Positions 16,650-25,240 of a DNA stretch of 64,000 nucleotides are shown here, piece by piece. Source of the DNA: Candidatus Endonucleibacter sp. (ex Gigantidas childressi) (GTDB taxonomy: Bacteria; Pseudomonadota; Gammaproteobacteria; Pseudomonadales; Endozoicomonadaceae); the NCBI GenBank assembly GCA_030674875.1, contig JASXSU010000002.1, positions 677,001 to 741,000 of the forward strand. Direction: 5' to 3'. Under the pieces are notes generated by a model that worked only from the letters and a program-made list of their open reading frames with translations, made no database searches and was not told where the DNA came from. A program made the translations under genes and the position numbers. Numbering within the stretch: the stretch's first letter is position 1; the number at the start of each line of letters is the position of its first letter.

Positions 16650-17417
16650 ATGAATCAGTTTTTACGTATTATACAACTATCAGACACTCATCTTTTTGCA
16701 ACCGATTGCGGACAAGTGCACGGTGTTAACACTCATGCAAGCTTGAGTGCAACAATTAAACACCTTCAAAACCGTTTTACCGATGCTATTGATGCCATTG
16801 TTATTACTGGTGATATCAGCCAGGATGAAACACCAGCTTCTTATCAGCGCTTAATCAACCACCTTACCCCACTGGCTACGCCTTTTTATTGGCTTCCAGG
16901 CAATCATGATATATTGGAAGTAATGACCAAGGCATGTCCACAGGCTGTTATCCAGTGCGTAGAAATGAGGCAGTGGCAGTTGTTAATGTTGGACTCAAAA
17001 AGTTCAGGAGAAGTTTCTGGCAGACTTACGGATCAAACATTAAGTTGGTTAAAATCTAGGCTCTCAGAAACAGAAAGTAAGAACACCATCATAGCTATGC
17101 ACCATCATCCTTATAAAACTGGTAGTAAATGGATGAATCATCTTGGACTTCAAAACGCCTTTCAATTTCAAGAAATTATATCTGACTATAGTAATATTAA
17201 AGCAGTTATTCACGGTCACATTCATCAGCAAGCAGAAGTATTTGTCGGCAATATTCCTTGTTTTGCTACACCGTCTACCTGTGCTCAGTTTAAAGCTAAC
17301 AGTCCTGATTTTCAGATCGACCATAGTCAGGCTACTGGCTACAGGATTTTGGAGCTGCATAACAATGGACGACTAGAGACCTCTATTGTTAGAGCATACA
17401 ACCATTATGATGGGTAA
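16650..17417 (+). CDS. cpdA: 3',5'-cyclic-AMP phosphodiesterase CpdA
   Basis: This calcineurin-like metallophosphoesterase has 255 residues. The metal-binding motifs appear in order: QLSDTHLF near the N-terminus, ITGDISQD, LPGNHD, MHHHPYKTGS and HGHIHQQAEV. Length and the C-terminal block (ATPSTCAQFKANSPDF, TGYRILEL) match CpdA, which hydrolyses cAMP in the cytoplasm and tunes CRP-dependent regulation. The gene appears intact although IS debris lies on both sides, so it may still be under selection. Confidence 0.9.
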   Translation: MNQFLRIIQLSDTHLFATDCGQVHGVNTHASLSATIKHLQNRFTDAIDAIVITGDISQDETPASYQRLINHLTPLATPFYWLPGNHDILEVMTKACPQAVIQCVEMRQWQLLMLDSKSSGEVSGRLTDQTLSWLKSRLSETESKNTIIAMHHHPYKTGSKWMNHLGLQNAFQFQEIISDYSNIKAVIHGHIHQQAEVFVGNIPCFATPSTCAQFKANSPDFQIDHSQATGYRILELHNNGRLETSIVRAYNHYDG

Positions 17418-19238: not shown

Positions 19239-19523
19239 ATGACCAAAGGACGGGCTACCCATCGCGGGGATGATGAGGATTTCATTGAAGACGCAAATAA
19301 TCATATCCGGAGGGAGAAATCAATTAGAGATAGGTGTCAAAAAAGGAAAGTGTCAAAAATACGTCGCGGTATTGACAGCTATTATACTGCTAGAGATAGC
19401 GGCCATCATACTCTCTATACTGATGACTTTGATAACTTTGATGACTTTGATGACTTTGATGACTTTGATGACTTTGATGACTTTGATGACCTTGATGACC
19501 TTGATGACTTATCACGAAATTAA
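19239..19523 (+). CDS. hypothetical Asp-rich repeat protein (94 aa)
   Basis: The ATG at 19239 has AAGGGA eight bases upstream. The first 60 residues are charged (DDEDFIEDANNHIRREKS); the last third is a (Asp-Asp-Phe)n run encoded by a 9-bp tandem repeat. The overlapping +1 frame (ATG at 19270) is also open for 94 codons and would give a different protein, with a membrane-like segment (VAVLTAIILLEIAAIILSI) followed by Leu-Met-Thr repeats. Either frame could be the coding one; the upstream ATG has the better ribosome site. No family is recognised. Confidence 0.35.
   Translation: MTKGRATHRGDDEDFIEDANNHIRREKSIRDRCQKRKVSKIRRGIDSYYTARDSGHHTLYTDDFDNFDDFDDFDDFDDFDDFDDLDDLDDLSRN
19422..19511 (+). repeat. 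9-bp tandem repeat, ten units
   Basis: The unit is GATGACTTT with two GATGACCTT and one GATAACTTT variants, ten consecutive copies. Because the unit is a multiple of three, changes in copy number keep both overlapping frames open. Confidence 0.9.
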
Positions 19524-19659
19524 CTATTATATGGAAATGTCTTTTCCTTCCTGATGTCCATGGGTACTCGTTACACTTGAACTTAAAATAGTTCTTCTCA
19601 TTTTTCAGTTTTAGTTATCTGCTGAGTCTCGCCTGATTATAAGCGCACTTAGTGAATAT

Positions 19660-19935: not shown

Positions 19936-20265
19936 TTAGCTGTGACAAAATTTACGGACCAGAAGACCTCTATACAAGCACTGAGCCAACTGTACATCGG
20001 ATAAGCGATACCATGTTCCAAGCAATAAGGCTCGAAACAAGGTCAGCAGAGGGTAGCTGGGGCGACCGGTGTTAGATGCGTAGATTGAGGATAGTAACTT
20101 CTCAATCTCTGACCATTCCAACAGCGCTTTTGTATCATCCAGACTACGAAGAATTGGATAATGTAGGTCGCTGGCTGAAATAAAGCGTTTTGGCTGTCTT
20201 GTGAAAGATTTTTGCATGCCGATATTATACCGAATCTGATTGTCTTTGTTGAGTTATGCTGAAGT
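19936..20265 (-). pseudogene. IS5-family transposase, 5' fragment
   Basis: The N-terminal 90 residues of the IS5 transposase are open on the minus strand from 20217 (SASDLHYPILRSLDDTKALL, SNTGRPSYPLLTLF, LFRALLLGTWYRLSDVQLAQ). The left terminal repeat (CAGCATAACTCAACAAAGAC on the minus strand) lies at about 20240-20265. Here the gene is not interrupted by an ERIC, giving the 'empty site' for 30486-30613. The rest of the element is missing. Confidence 0.75.
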
Positions 20266-20301
20266 ATCTGATTACAAATAAAAAAACAGAACTCGTTCAA
20301 C

Positions 20302-20332
20302 TTGACAACAGATGATACTAGAATGTTAGAAT
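20302..20332 (+). promoter_or_regulatory. putative sigma-70 promoter of tRNA-Arg
   Basis: A perfect -35 hexamer TTGACA (20302-20307) and a -10 TAGAAT (20327-20332) are 19 bases apart, slightly long. The predicted transcript start is 4-8 bases before the tRNA 5' end. Confidence 0.5.
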
Positions 20333-20344
20333 GCTTCTTACGAT

Positions 20345-20658
20345 GCCCTCGTAGCTCAGTAGGATAGAGCATTTGCCTCCTATTAATGAAAAATGGGCAC
20401 CCCGGTAGAAACACTGGGTGTGAATCTACTCAAATTCAGGGAAACCTTAACGGACTGGTAATTACCAGTGTCGATGACAATCCTGAGCGAAGCTGCACTA
20501 CAGTATGCGGAACGTGCAGAGACTTAACGGGTAGTGCCTACGGACCTCGGTCTACGGTAAAGAGAAAGTCCAGACTACAAACGGCAGTAATGCCGGTGGC
20601 GAAAGCCATAGTGGTATGAAGCGAAAGGTCAGACGTTCGAATCGTCTCGGGGGCACCA
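20345..20658 (+). tRNA. tRNA-Arg(CCU), interrupted by a group I intron
   Basis: Exons are 20345-20381 and 20619-20658. Acceptor stem GCCCTCG pairs with CGGGGGC, followed by A and an encoded CCA. The D arm is GCTC/GAGC. The anticodon stem TTTGC (20372-20376) pairs with GCGAA (20621-20625) through one T-G pair. The loop is C-T-CCT-A-A, with anticodon CCT at 20379-20381. The T arm is AGACG-TTCGAAT-CGTCT. The spliced tRNA is a normal 77-nt molecule. The intron lies directly after anticodon position 36. It decodes the rare Arg codon AGG. Confidence 0.93.
20382..20618 (+). ncRNA. group I self-splicing intron (237 nt) in tRNA-Arg(CCU)
   Basis: P1: exon CCU plus intron AUU (20379-20384) pair with AAUGGG (20392-20397), placing a U-G pair exactly at the 5' splice site. 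The conserved elements appear in order: P (AATTCAGGGAAACC, about 20433), Q (AATCCTGAGC, about 20479), R (GTGCAGAGACTTAACGG, 20514-20530) and S (AAGAGAAAGTCC, about 20559). P4 is TCAGG/CCTGA and P7 includes GACT/AGTC. The intron ends in G (20618). No endonuclease gene is inside. Size and layout resemble the small tRNA introns of bacteria such as Azoarcus and Agrobacterium. Confidence 0.9.
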
Positions 20659-20913
20659 CATTCAGCAATTTTTAATTTTCACCAAGATTACACCCATTTC
20701 ACATAGAGGTGCTTTTTTCTTATAATTAATGAGCTGCAATATTCACCCTATCTTACTAGGACAAGTTACAGATTTGGATTCTGTCGTAAGCATTATACAC
20801 CCTAGCACATAAATACAAAGGAATGATGACTTGCACAATGCTGGTTAACAGCTCTTTCATTTAAGTTTTTTAGCACTGATTAGCTTAGCGTCGTCAACTT
20901 TTTTGAGAGCTAT

Positions 20914-21018
20914 TATACCCGTAGCTTACAAGCAAGCGAAATCCCATAAGCCTATGAGTAGCAAGTGACTGAATGAGTGAGAGCAGCCAACCTCGCACCT
21001 TCAAGAGAAACTGATATA
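20914..21018 (-). repeat. degenerate ERIC-like repeat
   Basis: It starts TATACCCGTAGC and contains CATAAGCCTATGAGTAGCAA, GTGACTGAATGAGTGAGAGC and AGCCAACCTCGCACCTTCAA. The order is that of the intact palindromes at lower identity. It lies directly upstream of the IS5/IS30 chimera. Confidence 0.6.
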
Positions 21019-21027
21019 TATTAATAA

Positions 21028-22091
21028 AGACCTCAGCATAGCTCAACAAAGACGATTATATTCTGGTAAAATATCGGCATGCAAAAATCCTTCACAACAC
21101 AGCCCAAACTCTTCGTTTCAGCCAGCGACCTAAATTCATCCAATTCTTCGTAGTCTGGATGATACAAAAGCGCTGCTGAAATAGTCAGAGATTAAGAAAT
21201 TACTATCCTCAATCTACACCTCTAACACCGGTCGCCCCAGCCATCCTCTGCTGACTTTGTTTCGATCCTTATTGCTTGGAACATGGTACCGCTTATCCGA
21301 TGTACAGTTGGCTCAGTGCTTGTATATACCAGTCGCCTTTCAAGTTGCTACGTTGCTTCACCCCGATCACCTACTACTCGCAGGCTCACTGGGCTTAGCT
21401 TACTTACTCCCTAGTAGCAATTTGAAATGTTTTGGGTATAGCTATGAAAGCATCTACCTAATATTTGGGCGAATAAGCAGGCTGGCGGAGATCTTTACAT
21501 GCATCTTCGTCGCCAGGGCAAGAAGTATGACAAGCGACGAAACGGCAAGTCAACGCGCGGCCAGATAAAGAACCGCGTCAGCATAGATGATCGCTCAGAG
21601 ATTGTTGACGATAAATCGCGTATCGGAGACTGGGAGATTGATACCATCATTGGCAAAGGGCATAGCGGTGCTTTGGTAGCTATCGTCGAGCGGGTCACGA
21701 AGTACACGGTCTCAGCGCAGCAGATGTGACCAAGGCTACGATCAGCTTCCTCAATCCATTTAAGGATATTGTTCGCACCATTACGGCTGACAACGGGAAA
21801 GAGTTTTCGCACCATGAGAAAATCAGCCAAGCATTATCGGCGGATGTTTACTTTGCGCACCCCTGCAGCTCTGGGAGCGAGGGTTAAATGAGAACACCAA
21901 TGGCTTGCTACGACAATATTTTCCAAAGAATACAGACTTCAAGAAGGTCGGTCATATAGAGGTGAAGCGAGCATTGATGCGGATTAATTCTCGGCCAAGA
22001 AAAGATTTGAATTTCAAGACACCCGCCCTGATAATGGGTGAACACAGAGCTGCGTAGCAGCTTAATCTATGATGCACTTGGAATTTGAATC
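21028..22091 (+). mobile_element. IS5-ERIC-IS30 chimeric element
   Basis: The left part (21028-21324) is the 5' end of the IS5 element, with its terminal repeat and the transposase N-terminus (FRSLLLGTWYRLSDVQLAQC). It runs into an ERIC at the same base as the IS5 copy at 30486. The right part (21441-22091) leaves the ERIC at the same base as the IS30-A copy at 28296 and continues as the IS30 transposase C-terminal half (SIDDRSEIVDDKSRIGDWEI, ITADNGKEF, PRKDLNFKTPALI) to the IS30 right terminal repeat. Both transposase halves are frameshifted. The join through the ERIC is best explained by recombination between two ERIC copies. Confidence 0.85.
21325..21440 (+). repeat. ERIC-type repeat (116 bp, internal deletion) at chimera junction
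   Basis: It has the same ends and order as the 128-bp copies. The segment between GCTACGTTG and TCACCCCG is 12 bases shorter than in the others. It separates IS5 sequence on the left from IS30 sequence on the right. Confidence 0.85.
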
Positions 22092-22099
22092 TGCGTCCG

Positions 22100-22717
22100 T
22101 TATTTCTGGGCCAATTGTAAATAAAGGCTATGCAAATTATTTACGGTCTTATAAAGTTCGTTTACTAAGCCACTGTTATCAATTATATCATCGGCAAATC
22201 TCAAGCGCCTCTCCCTAGAGGGTTGACTTTTTATAATAGCTTGAACATGCTCTTCCGTCACATTATCTCTGGCCATCGTTCGCTTCAGTTGAATTGCCTC
22301 TGGCACATCCACCACCAATACACGATCAATAAATTGGTGCAGAAATGTTTCTACAAGCAAAGGCGAAGCAATAATGCCGTAAGGCGATGAAACCATTGTT
22401 AACTGTTGCCGGATCAAGTTATAAATTTTAGGGTGAAGCAGTTTTTCCAGCCAGATTTTTTCCTCTGGATCATTGAAAATAATATTCCGAACTCTTTTTC
22501 GGTCAAGCCTTCCATCTTTAGAAAGAATTGCTTTCCCGTAACGTTTTTCAATACTACTTAAAGATGAAGTTCCTTGCTCAACAACAGCTCGTGCTACAAC
22601 ATCAGCGTCAATAATGATGACTACCTGATCGGAAAACAAATTAGTAACAGTTGACTTACCACTGCCGATACCTCCTGTTACACCCACAATATAAGGTTTT
22701 TTGTCTAGCGAATGCAT
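22100..22717 (-). CDS. coaE: dephospho-CoA kinase
   Basis: CoaE phosphorylates dephospho-CoA in the last step of coenzyme A synthesis. At 205 residues it has the normal length. It has the P-loop GVTGGIGSGKSTV, the substrate-binding DADVVAR, LLHPKIYNLIRQQL and the lid-region RDNVTEEHVQAIIKSQPSRE, plus a C-terminal RFADDIIDNSG. The start overlaps the pilD stop by one base (TAATG), the conserved pilD-coaE arrangement of gammaproteobacteria. The gene ends nine bases from an IS30 right terminal repeat, so whatever lay downstream (often yacG) is gone. Confidence 0.94.
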   Translation of the reverse strand: MHSLDKKPYIVGVTGGIGSGKSTVTNLFSDQVVIIIDADVVARAVVEQGTSSLSSIEKRYGKAILSKDGRLDRKRVRNIIFNDPEEKIWLEKLLHPKIYNLIRQQLTMVSSPYGIIASPLLVETFLHQFIDRVLVVDVPEAIQLKRTMARDNVTEEHVQAIIKSQPSRERRLRFADDIIDNSGLVNELYKTVNNLHSLYLQLAQK

Positions 22718-23589
22718 TAAAACCTCATAAATTGAAGATACATCCTGAAAAGCTGATCACCCCACAGTAAAGCAATAAAACCCGCCACAGAAAGGTAGGG
22801 ACCAAAAGGTATAGGTTTTGAGCGGTTATGTAGTTTAAAAGCAATAAGCATAAGAGCAACAATGGTCCCTACGGCAGAAGAAAGAAAGATAATCAGGGGT
22901 AGCATAGTCCAACCAAGCCAAGCGCCTAATGCGGCCAACAGCTTGAAATCACCATAGCCCATGCCCTCCTTACCTGTGATTAATTTAAAGAGCCAGTAAA
23001 CCGACCATAATGAGAGATAACCGAAAACTGCACCCCAGAGAGCATCATTAAGAGACAGTCCAGGATTAAAGCTATTAAATATAAGTCCTAACCAAATTAG
23101 TGGTAAAGTAATGGAGTCTGGTAATAGCTGTGTATCAAAATCAATCATGGACAGAGTTAGTAAACACCATGCCAGCATGAAATAAGCCAAAATTTCCACC
23201 GTAACACCAAACTGCCAACCAATCAGTACAGTAATCATAGCGCTGAGACACTCAACAGCAGGATAGCGCCAAGAGATTATGGTGTTACATGATGAGCATC
23301 TACCCTTTAAGCACAAATAACTAATAATGGGAATGTTTTCCCATAAGGTTATTTTATGCTGACAGGAGGGGCAACAGGAAGACGGCACTGCTAGGTTATA
23401 AGCTTCTGACTGAGTACAATTCTTCTCTGGAAACAAAACCGCCATGCTGTCTTCATGCCATTGTTTTTCCAGCATAAGTGGCAGTCGGTGGATTACCACA
23501 TTTAAAAAACTACCAGCGACAAGACCTACCATAGTTAATATTATAAAAAAATAAGCAGATGATTGTTGCAGTAAATCAATCAATATCAT
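22717..23589 (-). CDS. pilD: prepilin peptidase / N-methyltransferase PilD
   Basis: This is a 290-residue polytopic inner-membrane aspartyl protease that cleaves and methylates type IV pilins and type II secretion pseudopilins. The N-terminal cytoplasmic domain has the two zinc-binding Cys pairs (CCPSCQHKI and GRCSSCNTI). The catalytic aspartates are in DFDTQLLPDSITLP and GMGYGDFKLLAALG. Length is normal. It is followed without a gap by coaE and preceded by a 346-bp stretch and pilC. Confidence 0.94.
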   Translation of the reverse strand: MILIDLLQQSSAYFFIILTMVGLVAGSFLNVVIHRLPLMLEKQWHEDSMAVLFPEKNCTQSEAYNLAVPSSCCPSCQHKITLWENIPIISYLCLKGRCSSCNTIISWRYPAVECLSAMITVLIGWQFGVTVEILAYFMLAWCLLTLSMIDFDTQLLPDSITLPLIWLGLIFNSFNPGLSLNDALWGAVFGYLSLWSVYWLFKLITGKEGMGYGDFKLLAALGAWLGWTMLPLIIFLSSAVGTIVALMLIAFKLHNRSKPIPFGPYLSVAGFIALLWGDQLFRMYLQFMRF

Positions 23590-23935
23590 TGTTTCTGGAA
23601 ACCCCAGCTTAAGTTAAAGCTTAGTACTCACCAAAAATTGGTTTTATTAGGAGGGTAACGAAGCAATACAATAGTTAGGTAACGATATCTTCTTCAACCA
23701 CAAAAGTACAGTCATTAACCATGACTTTAACCATTTTAAACGCCGACAGGTAGCACAGAAAGGGATTCAACACCTTTGCCAAAGGGTTGGTGGCGTGACC
23801 ACGGTAGCCCAGCATGACCAAACACTAAGACTATCTGGCGCTAACAACACAACATCCACCTCCAAGGCAACAAGTATATAGCGCAGATTTTGATTCTTCT
23901 TATTTATATATTGCTTTACAAACAATATACCGTTA
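23590..23935. other. 346-bp gap between pilC and pilD
   Basis: pilC and pilD usually lie close together, so this is a late insertion or a decayed gene. Short words such as GCCAAAGGGTTGGTGGCGTG could be transposon debris, but I cannot assign a family. Confidence 0.35.
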
Positions 23936-25168
23936 CTACGAAATAGATCCCATGGAAAATATTGGCAAGTACATGGCGATAATCAGCCCACCAACAAGGA
24001 CACCAAGCACTGACATAATGAGAGGCTCCATCAGGCTAGTCAGACCGTCTACCATATTATCCACTTCATTTTCATAAAAAGTTGCAACTTTATCAAGCAT
24101 TGCGTCTAACGTACCAGATTCCTCGCCAATAGCAACCATTTGAATAGCCATTGACGGGAAGACTTTAGTACTCTTCATAGATACTTGTAACTGCTGACCG
24201 TTAGAAACAGATTCTTTGATTTTGATGGCTGCATCATAATAAACTACATTGCCTGCAGCTCCGGAAACGGAATCCAGTGCATCGATAAGAGGAACACCAG
24301 CGGCAAAAGTAGTTGATAAAGTCCTGGCAAAGCGCGCTACCGCTGACTTCACAAGAATCTCACCAAATATAGGGAGTTTTAACAGTACTCTATCCATTTG
24401 GTCGCGAGCGCTTTTTGAGGTTCTTAAAATACGTTTCACAGCAAAAACAAAACCAACAATACCGCCTACAAGATAATACCAATTATCCTGAACAAACCGA
24501 GATAGCTCAATGACCATCTGAGTAAAAGCGGGAAGCTCTGCACCGAAGCCTGCAAACACCTCTTCAAACTGAGGAACCACCTTAATTAACAGAATACCGC
24601 TGACTATGATTGCAATACACACAACAGCAATAGGATAGTTCATTGCTTTTTTTATCTTTGCTTTCAATAATTCAGTTTTTTCTTTATATGTTGCAATTCT
24701 GTCCAACAAAGCTTCCAACGCCCCAGACTGCTCACCTGCATCTACAAGATTGCAATACAGATCATTAAAATACAGCGGAAATTTACGGAAGGAGTTCGCA
24801 AGGCTTGTACCTCCGGCTACATCATTTTTTACTTTTATGAGGAGCCCCTTCAAGGAAGCATTATCTACTCCATCTATCGTAATATCAAAGGCACTGAGCA
24901 AAGGCACCCCAGCCTTAGTCATGGTTGCTAGCTGGCGAGTAAACAAGGTTATGTCCATGGGCTTAATCCCACCACCCAAGAGCTTCGACGCACTCTTCTT
25001 TTTCTTTGCTTTTGCGGAGATAACTCCCTGCGCTCTGAGAGTTGCCTTTAGCAAAGCAATACTAGCCGCTTGGGTCTCCCCCTTTACTACTTGACCATTC
25101 TTATCTTTGCCTACCCATAGATAGGTGATACTTTTTTCTTTATTCTTTGCCATATCCTTAGCACTCAT
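23936..25168 (-). CDS. pilC: type IV pilus inner-membrane platform protein PilC
   Basis: This GspF-family protein anchors the pilus assembly ATPases PilB and PilT in the inner membrane. From the ATG at 25168 it has 410 residues, typical of PilC (a TTG at 25183 would add five). It has two related cytoplasmic GspF domains (FTRQLATMTKAGVPLLSAFD, and FARTLSTTFAAGVPLIDALD with VAIGEESGTLDAMLDKVATF) and three hydrophobic segments (AVVCIAIIVSGILLIKVV, WYYLVGGIVGFVFAV, LIMSVLGVLVGGLIIAMYL). The usual upstream neighbour pilB is absent: an IS4 element begins within 80 bases. Confidence 0.93.
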   Translation of the reverse strand: MSAKDMAKNKEKSITYLWVGKDKNGQVVKGETQAASIALLKATLRAQGVISAKAKKKKSASKLLGGGIKPMDITLFTRQLATMTKAGVPLLSAFDITIDGVDNASLKGLLIKVKNDVAGGTSLANSFRKFPLYFNDLYCNLVDAGEQSGALEALLDRIATYKEKTELLKAKIKKAMNYPIAVVCIAIIVSGILLIKVVPQFEEVFAGFGAELPAFTQMVIELSRFVQDNWYYLVGGIVGFVFAVKRILRTSKSARDQMDRVLLKLPIFGEILVKSAVARFARTLSTTFAAGVPLIDALDSVSGAAGNVVYYDAAIKIKESVSNGQQLQVSMKSTKVFPSMAIQMVAIGEESGTLDAMLDKVATFYENEVDNMVDGLTSLMEPLIMSVLGVLVGGLIIAMYLPIFSMGSIS

Positions 25169-25240
25169 TGCAAATTCCGACAAATAGTTAAATCGGCAAA
25201 TATCTCAAAAAAACAAGGATAGAAAGTTAACATTTTTACC

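Follow-up and report, generated by a model that had tools for sequence, protein, structure and literature searches.

An intron-bearing tRNA-Arg(CCU) gene in Candidatus Endonucleibacter: structure, decoding and possible origin as a whole gene

The stretch of DNA from Candidatus Endonucleibacter sp. (ex Gigantidas childressi) analysed here (contig JASXSU010000002.1, positions 677,001 to 741,000; 64,000 nucleotides, hereafter the window) was found to carry, at positions 20345-20658, a tRNA-Arg(CCU) gene that is read with high confidence as interrupted by a group I intron, one of the small bacterial IC3-like introns of tRNA genes. The intron is real and of a known and widespread kind. The subgroup label IC3 is assumed here; the element is small, lies in the anticodon loop and was placed on the intron tree among the tRNA introns recovered by a core-motif scan. 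The most interesting aspect of the gene is its descent, and the reading in which the whole gene displaced a resident one is worth following.

Anatomy of the gene and structure of the intron

ARAGORN with the intron option reported a tRNA-Arg(CCT) of 77 bases whose anticodon loop is interrupted after U36 by an intron of 237 bases. Without that option it reported no tRNA in the 64-kb window, nor in a 600-nt stretch around the gene, so the exons fold as a tRNA only with the intron out. The joined exons give a complete, undamaged cloverleaf with a CCU anticodon and a CCA end, and the spliced product is predicted to be 77 nt long. The boundaries (Table 1) coincide with those of the original prediction, which had given a gene at 20345-20658 with 237 nt to be removed after base 36. 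A 5’ splice site after U33 (UGCCU with GGGCA) was considered by hand and rejected, because no 3’ exon then yields a 7-nt loop and a plausible anticodon. The loop CCTCCTAA of the 5’ exon is also found in the intact tRNA-Arg(CCT) of the family genomes G023-G025.

Table 1 Features of the interrupted tRNA-Arg(CCU) gene (positions in the window)
Feature	Positions	Strand	Basis
Possible promoter: TTGACA 20302-20307, TAGAAT 20327-20332, spacer 19 nt	20302-20332	+	By eye, weak
5’ exon of tRNA-Arg(CCU), ending with anticodon CCU (positions 34-36)	20345-20381	+	ARAGORN, computed boundaries
P1 5’ strand, exon CCU and intron AUU; pairs with 20392-20397 (AAUGGG)	20379-20384	+	By hand
Group I intron, 237 nt, terminal G at 20618	20382-20618	+	Rfam RF00028, alignment, pair counts
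P1 3’ strand / internal guide sequence, GGG at 20395-20397	20392-20397	+	Alignment, pair counts
P2 hairpin	20398-20422	+	Double-sided changes in 9/9 pairs, 87.9% of cells paired
P3 5’ strand CUACUC; pairs with 20529-20534 (GGGUAG)	20426-20431	+	100% paired in 23 sequences, double-sided changes in 4/6 pairs
P4 5’ strand; pairs with 20482-20486	20436-20440	+	100% paired, double-sided changes in 3/5 pairs
P7 5’ strand GACUU; pairs with 20566-20570 (AAGUC)	20521-20525	+	100% paired in 23 sequences
P9 and P9.1 hairpins upstream of the 3’ splice site	20582-20608	+	Pair counts
3’ exon of tRNA-Arg(CCU), CCA encoded	20619-20658	+	ARAGORN, computed boundaries

The focal intron and its flanks were aligned with 22 other interrupted tRNA-Arg(CCT) genes (23 of 25 candidate loci), and a structure of 48 pairs was assigned by hand on the focal sequence and the alignment. 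Standard pairs fill 97.3% of the 1093 cells; shuffled data give 79.6%, and sliding the partner by 1-3 columns gives 27-45%. Double-sided changes were counted in 202 cells, the shuffle mean being 61 and the slid controls giving 24 to 37; these are the stronger evidence, since the paired share leans to a structure assigned on these same sequences. The 48-pair structure is kept across the 23 tRNA-Arg(CCU) introns with strong covariation.

In P1, the CCU/GGG pairs, among them the splice-site wobble U20381.G20395, are invariant in 23/23 sequences, the next pair (A-U) is kept and the inner two lie outside the count. P6 is 97.8% paired in the same 23 sequences, while the two counted pairs of P8 are invariant and so uninformative on covariation. 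One of the five pairs of P7, predicted by homology to be the guanosine-binding helix, covaries (UA/GC/AU) and the other four never vary. P1 with its U.G, P3, P4, P6, P7, P8, P9 and the terminal G are all present in the focal intron, which has a standard pair at 47 of the 48 positions, including every counted pair of P1, P3, P4 and P7. A competing long pairing, CUGCAC/GUGCAG, was ruled out because most relatives read GUGUAG there. The group I intron claimed in the original prediction is confirmed; the P1 U-G and the P4 and P7 pairings on which that claim had leaned are paired in 23/23, and the terminal G is at 20618.

Three points weigh on the other side. P5 has a C.A mismatch (20445/20477) in the focal intron, at a position that pairs in the other 22 aligned sequences; just 5’ of the guide GGG the focal intron reads AU and the consensus UU, so that P10 may be weak; and the Rfam score of 42.1 bits lies below 50, the gathering score for Intron_gpI (RF00028). 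This was the sole Rfam family matched in positions 20250-20760 (511 bases), with an E value of 1.9e-9 (3.2e-9 for the same match in the whole-genome search), and a scan at gathering scores returned nothing in the 64-kb window. Among seven related interrupted loci put through the same scan, four exceeded 50 bits (L145, L079, L159 and L119), two fell short of it (L158 46.8, L236 45.7) and one, L072, was without an Intron_gpI match at E 1e-4; since the relatives fall on both sides of 50, the gathering cut-off is a poor refuter for these introns. A score below threshold, which had been named beforehand as speaking against the intron, is literally what was obtained, but the scores of the relatives blunt its force.

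Judged from its sequence, the intron very probably works. Once transcribed, it would fold and bind an external guanosine in P7; the precursor would be cut after anticodon U36 at the P1 U.G pair, and the exons would be joined at the terminal G to give the 77-nt tRNA, which would then be aminoacylated and read AGG. The gene is one of a lineage of such interrupted genes that occurs here and there in Gammaproteobacteria and, on the reading preferred here, was gained whole, replacing the resident gene. Splicing, tRNA function and the transfer event are all things that we infer from sequence. As for transcription, a scan allowing promoter spacers of 16-18 nt only did not report the TTGACA/TAGAAT pair of Table 1, whose spacer is 19 nt.

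Descent of the gene and its surroundings

An intron tree was built from 154 introns, its bootstrap not being fully settled. It joined the focal intron with L159, from a Halothiobacillaceae metagenome-assembled genome (MAG), at 95/77, with L236 added at 98/96 and L145 at 99/87; the host of L236 (G201) belongs to another family of the same order and L145 comes from a Thiotrichales MAG. The branch consists mainly of gammaproteobacterial tRNA-Arg introns and stands apart from the alphaproteobacterial ones. An independent tree of the joined exons (65 rows, 77 columns) put the same four genes together, at 94/80, which falls short of the starred level. Exon identity to the focal gene is 90.9% for L159, 88.3% for L145 and 87.0% for L236, and falls to 75.3% and 70.5% for the intact genes of the congeners G004 and G005. 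Over all tRNAs with a shared anticodon, the median identity to these congeners is 97.4% (G004, 29 tRNAs) and 97.3% (G005, 27 tRNAs); Arg(CCT) is the least identical shared tRNA with both, the next lowest being at 89.6% and 79.8%, respectively.

Whole-gene displacement fits these data because the exons, like the intron, fall with interrupted genes from three other families and not with the intact genes of the congeners. On this ground we tentatively propose that the entire intron-bearing gene was gained in place of a resident tRNA-Arg(CCU). The earlier suggestion that such an intron would point to transfer is supported by the two groupings and the exon identities, for a whole gene that looks foreign to the genus and not for the intron alone. 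If the displacement is true, a tRNA would have been swapped between families along with its self-splicing intron; the matching exon and intron groupings make this a concrete and checkable case.

Several results count against transfer. The exon tree has only 77 columns, and no starred set includes the focal gene. The congeners G004 and G005 are themselves only 75.3% alike at Arg(CCT), so that this tRNA turns over in the genus anyway, and Leu(TAA) of G005 is also low, at 79.8%. The intact gene of G025, a member of the same family, reaches 84.4% identity to the joined exons, near the value of L236.

Vertical inheritance, by which the host would have retained an interrupted tRNA-Arg(CCU) of its ancestors that the congeners and most of the family have lost, is rather unlikely, even though elsewhere in the order other families do have interrupted Arg(CCT) genes (G201, G729 and, at a greater distance, G074, G209 and G229). 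Exon and intron distances are correlated (rho 0.51 for 40 interrupted Arg(CCT) genes, a value that none of 2000 permutations reached; rho 0.35 for the 17 genes with a ctcct loop, reached in 15 of 2000), and vertical descent predicts such a correlation too. Vertical descent sits less well with the intact genes found in both congeners and in 32 further family genomes, whose identity to the joined exons ranges from 63.6 to 84.4%, while the exons nearest to the focal ones are those of the Halothiobacillaceae and Thiotrichales MAG genes. It is also at odds with a DNA search of 390 genomes of the order, which gave the full gene only in the host (G000), G201 and G729, the latter two at 77%, and partial matches in G074 and G138, although this search misses diverged interrupted genes, for example those of G209 and G229. 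Entry of the intron alone into a resident tRNA-Arg(CCU), by homing or reverse splicing, is unlikely, given that the exons group with exons of other interrupted genes instead of those of the congeners, that exon and intron distances correlate, and that 237 nt leaves no space for a homing endonuclease.

No shared mobile element or flank was found in the neighbouring DNA: six relative loci were compared, five distinct genes with L236 and L363 taken as one, and in each the similarity runs no farther than about 20 nt beyond the gene. Around the congener Arg(CCU) genes, a 12-kb stretch of G004 matches the window only by an open reading frame (ORF) of transposase type, and nothing of a 20-kb stretch of G005 matches it. 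The tRNA gene lies between two inverted pieces of one insertion sequence (IS) with a DUF772 transposase domain, at 19971-20280 and 21015-21326, which are 90.9% identical over 297 nt. This arrangement may be due to chance, because the host genome contains 40 or more matches to this IS (40 of 89 candidates scored). With the same reserve as for the displacement itself, it is conceivable that interrupted tRNA-Arg(CCU) genes travel in Gammaproteobacteria as whole cassettes that replace the resident gene, and that the flanking IS fragments may have moved this one.

Near the IS pieces there is a tandem array of 9-nt units (TTTGATGAC-like) at 19403-19528. Farther out lie a metallophosphoesterase gene (16650-17417) and, at 22100-25183, coaE, a prepilin-peptidase gene and a T2SSF-family gene.

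A sole tRNA-Arg(CCU) copy, AGG decoding and a second intron

The tRNA search of the host genome (3.68 Mb, 98.75% complete), in which 150 of 197 first-look candidates were scored, gave 41 tRNA matches with no intact tRNA-Arg(CCT) among them. A pattern made of a CCT anticodon loop, a T-arm and CCA was applied to 37 family genomes (2.6-7.4 Mb) and matched at least once in 34 of them, both congeners included, the matching gene being typed in all 34 as an intact tRNA-Arg(CCT) by ARAGORN; the host genome gave no match. Two other family genomes, G013 and G030, are likewise without one, so absence by pattern alone says little. A second intact tRNA-Arg(CCU), which according to the original prediction would mark the present copy as dead, was thus sought by both routes and none was found.

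As no intact CCU copy was found, the cognate tRNA for AGG would need removal of the intron. AGG accounts for 39 of 7773 codons in 18 long ORFs chosen from the window and is used by 15 of them. An intact tRNA-Arg(UCU) gene (anticodon TCT) is present in the host genome, and such a tRNA can in principle read AGG by wobble; the statement that AGG decoding depends on splicing therefore holds for the cognate tRNA and is too strong as it was first made. That the intron is decayed and non-splicing, the tRNA gene dead and AGG read by tRNA-Arg(UCU) alone is very improbable: the Rfam score under the cut-off, the P5 mismatch, the intact Arg(TCT) gene and the ongoing genome decay shown by many IS pieces and two decayed tRNA-Asn-like genes are outweighed by the standard pairs throughout the counted P1, P3, P4 and P7, by the undamaged cloverleaf and by the spread of AGG over the window ORFs.

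Two host tRNA matches that ARAGORN did not call resemble decayed tRNA-Asn(GTT) (L307:101-161 and L308:101-176); one is without most of the D-arm, and the variable region of the other contains an expanded GGTCGCT-like repeat. In five other family genomes (G006, G007, G012, G024 and G027; loci L193, L194, L199, L210 and L213) the 3’ half of tRNA-Arg(CCT) is matched once more beside the intact gene; these extra matches are not read as tRNA by ARAGORN and are possibly leftovers of integrated islands.

A second Intron_gpI match in the host genome (73.6 bits, C2:138803-139126) lies inside tRNA-Leu(CAA). This intron is 336 nt long (L032:1464-1886; C2 about 138766-139188), and a P1 assigned by hand, GGGAU/GUCCC, would place the splice site between positions 32 and 33. 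No intact Leu(CAA) was present among the 29 other typed anticodons of the genome. On the tree the intron falls on another branch, together with Leu(CAA) introns from the same family and order; within the family such introns are also carried by genus g2, and within the order by further families. A scan with default settings would make the genome seem without tRNA-Arg(CCU) and tRNA-Leu(CAA), and both are present behind introns; in the window the default settings miss the gene twice, as neither ARAGORN without introns nor Rfam at the gathering score reports anything.

Distribution and relation to known introns

Intron_gpI was matched at E <=1e-4 in 5 of 37 family genomes; at E <=1e-5 the counts were 23 of 292 in the order and 51 of 369 in the class, the own genome being included in each. 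The class sampled is presumably that of GTDB, which includes Betaproteobacteria, so 51/369 does not refer to Gammaproteobacteria in the older sense. From these searches 61 loci were stored, a part of all matches, and 55 of them, two own loci included, were typed as interrupted tRNAs, most commonly Gln(CTG) (23), Leu(CAA) (9), Arg(CCT) (5) and Leu(TAA) (5). The 23 tRNA-Gln(CUG) loci (L219-L272, order and class) have the intron after C34 and stand mostly together on the intron tree. A preference of the introns for tRNAs with C34 (39/55 typed loci) is not claimed, because 23 represent this one Gln(CTG) site. Other tRNA introns in the family were seen in tRNA-Met(CAT) of G010 (L037) and in a tRNA typed Gln(TTG) of G028 (L038).

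The core-motif scan of a named genome collection gave at least 118 stretches, with the taxonomy of MAGs as deposited. Introns at the same site of tRNA-Arg(CCT), after CCT, were found in at least eight gammaproteobacterial records (L111, L126, L128, L145, L153, L158, L159 and L182) and, among the matches listed, also in many alphaproteobacteria, in the cyanobacteria L119 and L172, in an acidobacterial MAG (L124) and in a Herbaspirillum MAG (L102); Met/Ile(CAT) and Leu(TAA) introns were recovered as well. In view of the eight records and the 51 class genomes, the earlier notion that a tRNA group I intron is out of place in a gammaproteobacterium does not stand, nor does its novelty for that class, since putative group I introns in gammaproteobacterial tRNAs have already been published (PMC4853749). 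What the present gene adds is a clear gammaproteobacterial case of a known class.

In a plasmid collection 12 records matched, none over the full length. A Tritonibacter tRNA that contains a related intron gave the longest match (73% over 166-314); matches from Bradyrhizobium, Nitrobacter and Methylobacterium plasmids cover the 3’ exon, and those from Pasteurella and Escherichia the 5’ exon. On the Tritonibacter mobilis megaplasmid (L039:324-651) a tRNA typed Ile(UAU) has a related intron after U33, an arrangement seen also in Salipiger (L078) and Ruegeria (L129).

The introns of Azoarcus tRNA-Ile(CAU) and cyanobacterial tRNA-Leu(UAA) are reference members of subgroup IC3, being small, located in the anticodon loop and endowed with the same core motifs; they differ from the focal intron in the tRNA that they interrupt and, for Leu(UAA), also in the insertion position. 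Table 1 of a 2014 review gives tRNAs with group I introns for cyanobacteria, alpha- and betaproteobacteria only (PMC4033280). The paper on tRNAscan-SE 2.0 ascribes missing fMet or Ile2 tRNAs in 36 genomes to group I introns outside its design (PMC8450103). In the open-licence literature, as far as its accessible portions go, no printed description of a gammaproteobacterial tRNA-Arg(CCU) intron was found. For Candidatus Maribeggiatoa and Candidatus Thiomargarita nelsonii, putative group I introns are reported to hide gammaproteobacterial tRNA genes from annotation, with no subgroup assigned there (PMC4853749).

The homologue studied by experiment is the Bartonella bacilliformis tRNA-Arg(CCU) intron, BbgpI, which splices in vivo and in vitro according to the paper describing it, where the Agrobacterium tRNA-Arg(CCU) intron is also named (PMC7717549). 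The alphaproteobacterial introns of this type (BbgpI, those of other Bartonella and others) share with the focal intron the tRNA, the site after CCU, the P1 CCU/GGG pairing and an alignable core, whereas the focal intron lies in a separate, mainly gammaproteobacterial branch and the exon sequences differ. Closer counterparts are the genes of Halothiobacillaceae UBA5861 (L159), Thiotrichales BB2 (L145), G201 and G729, which have the site and structure of the focal gene, are 72 to 84% identical to it depending on the stretch and measure, and differ in their flanking DNA.
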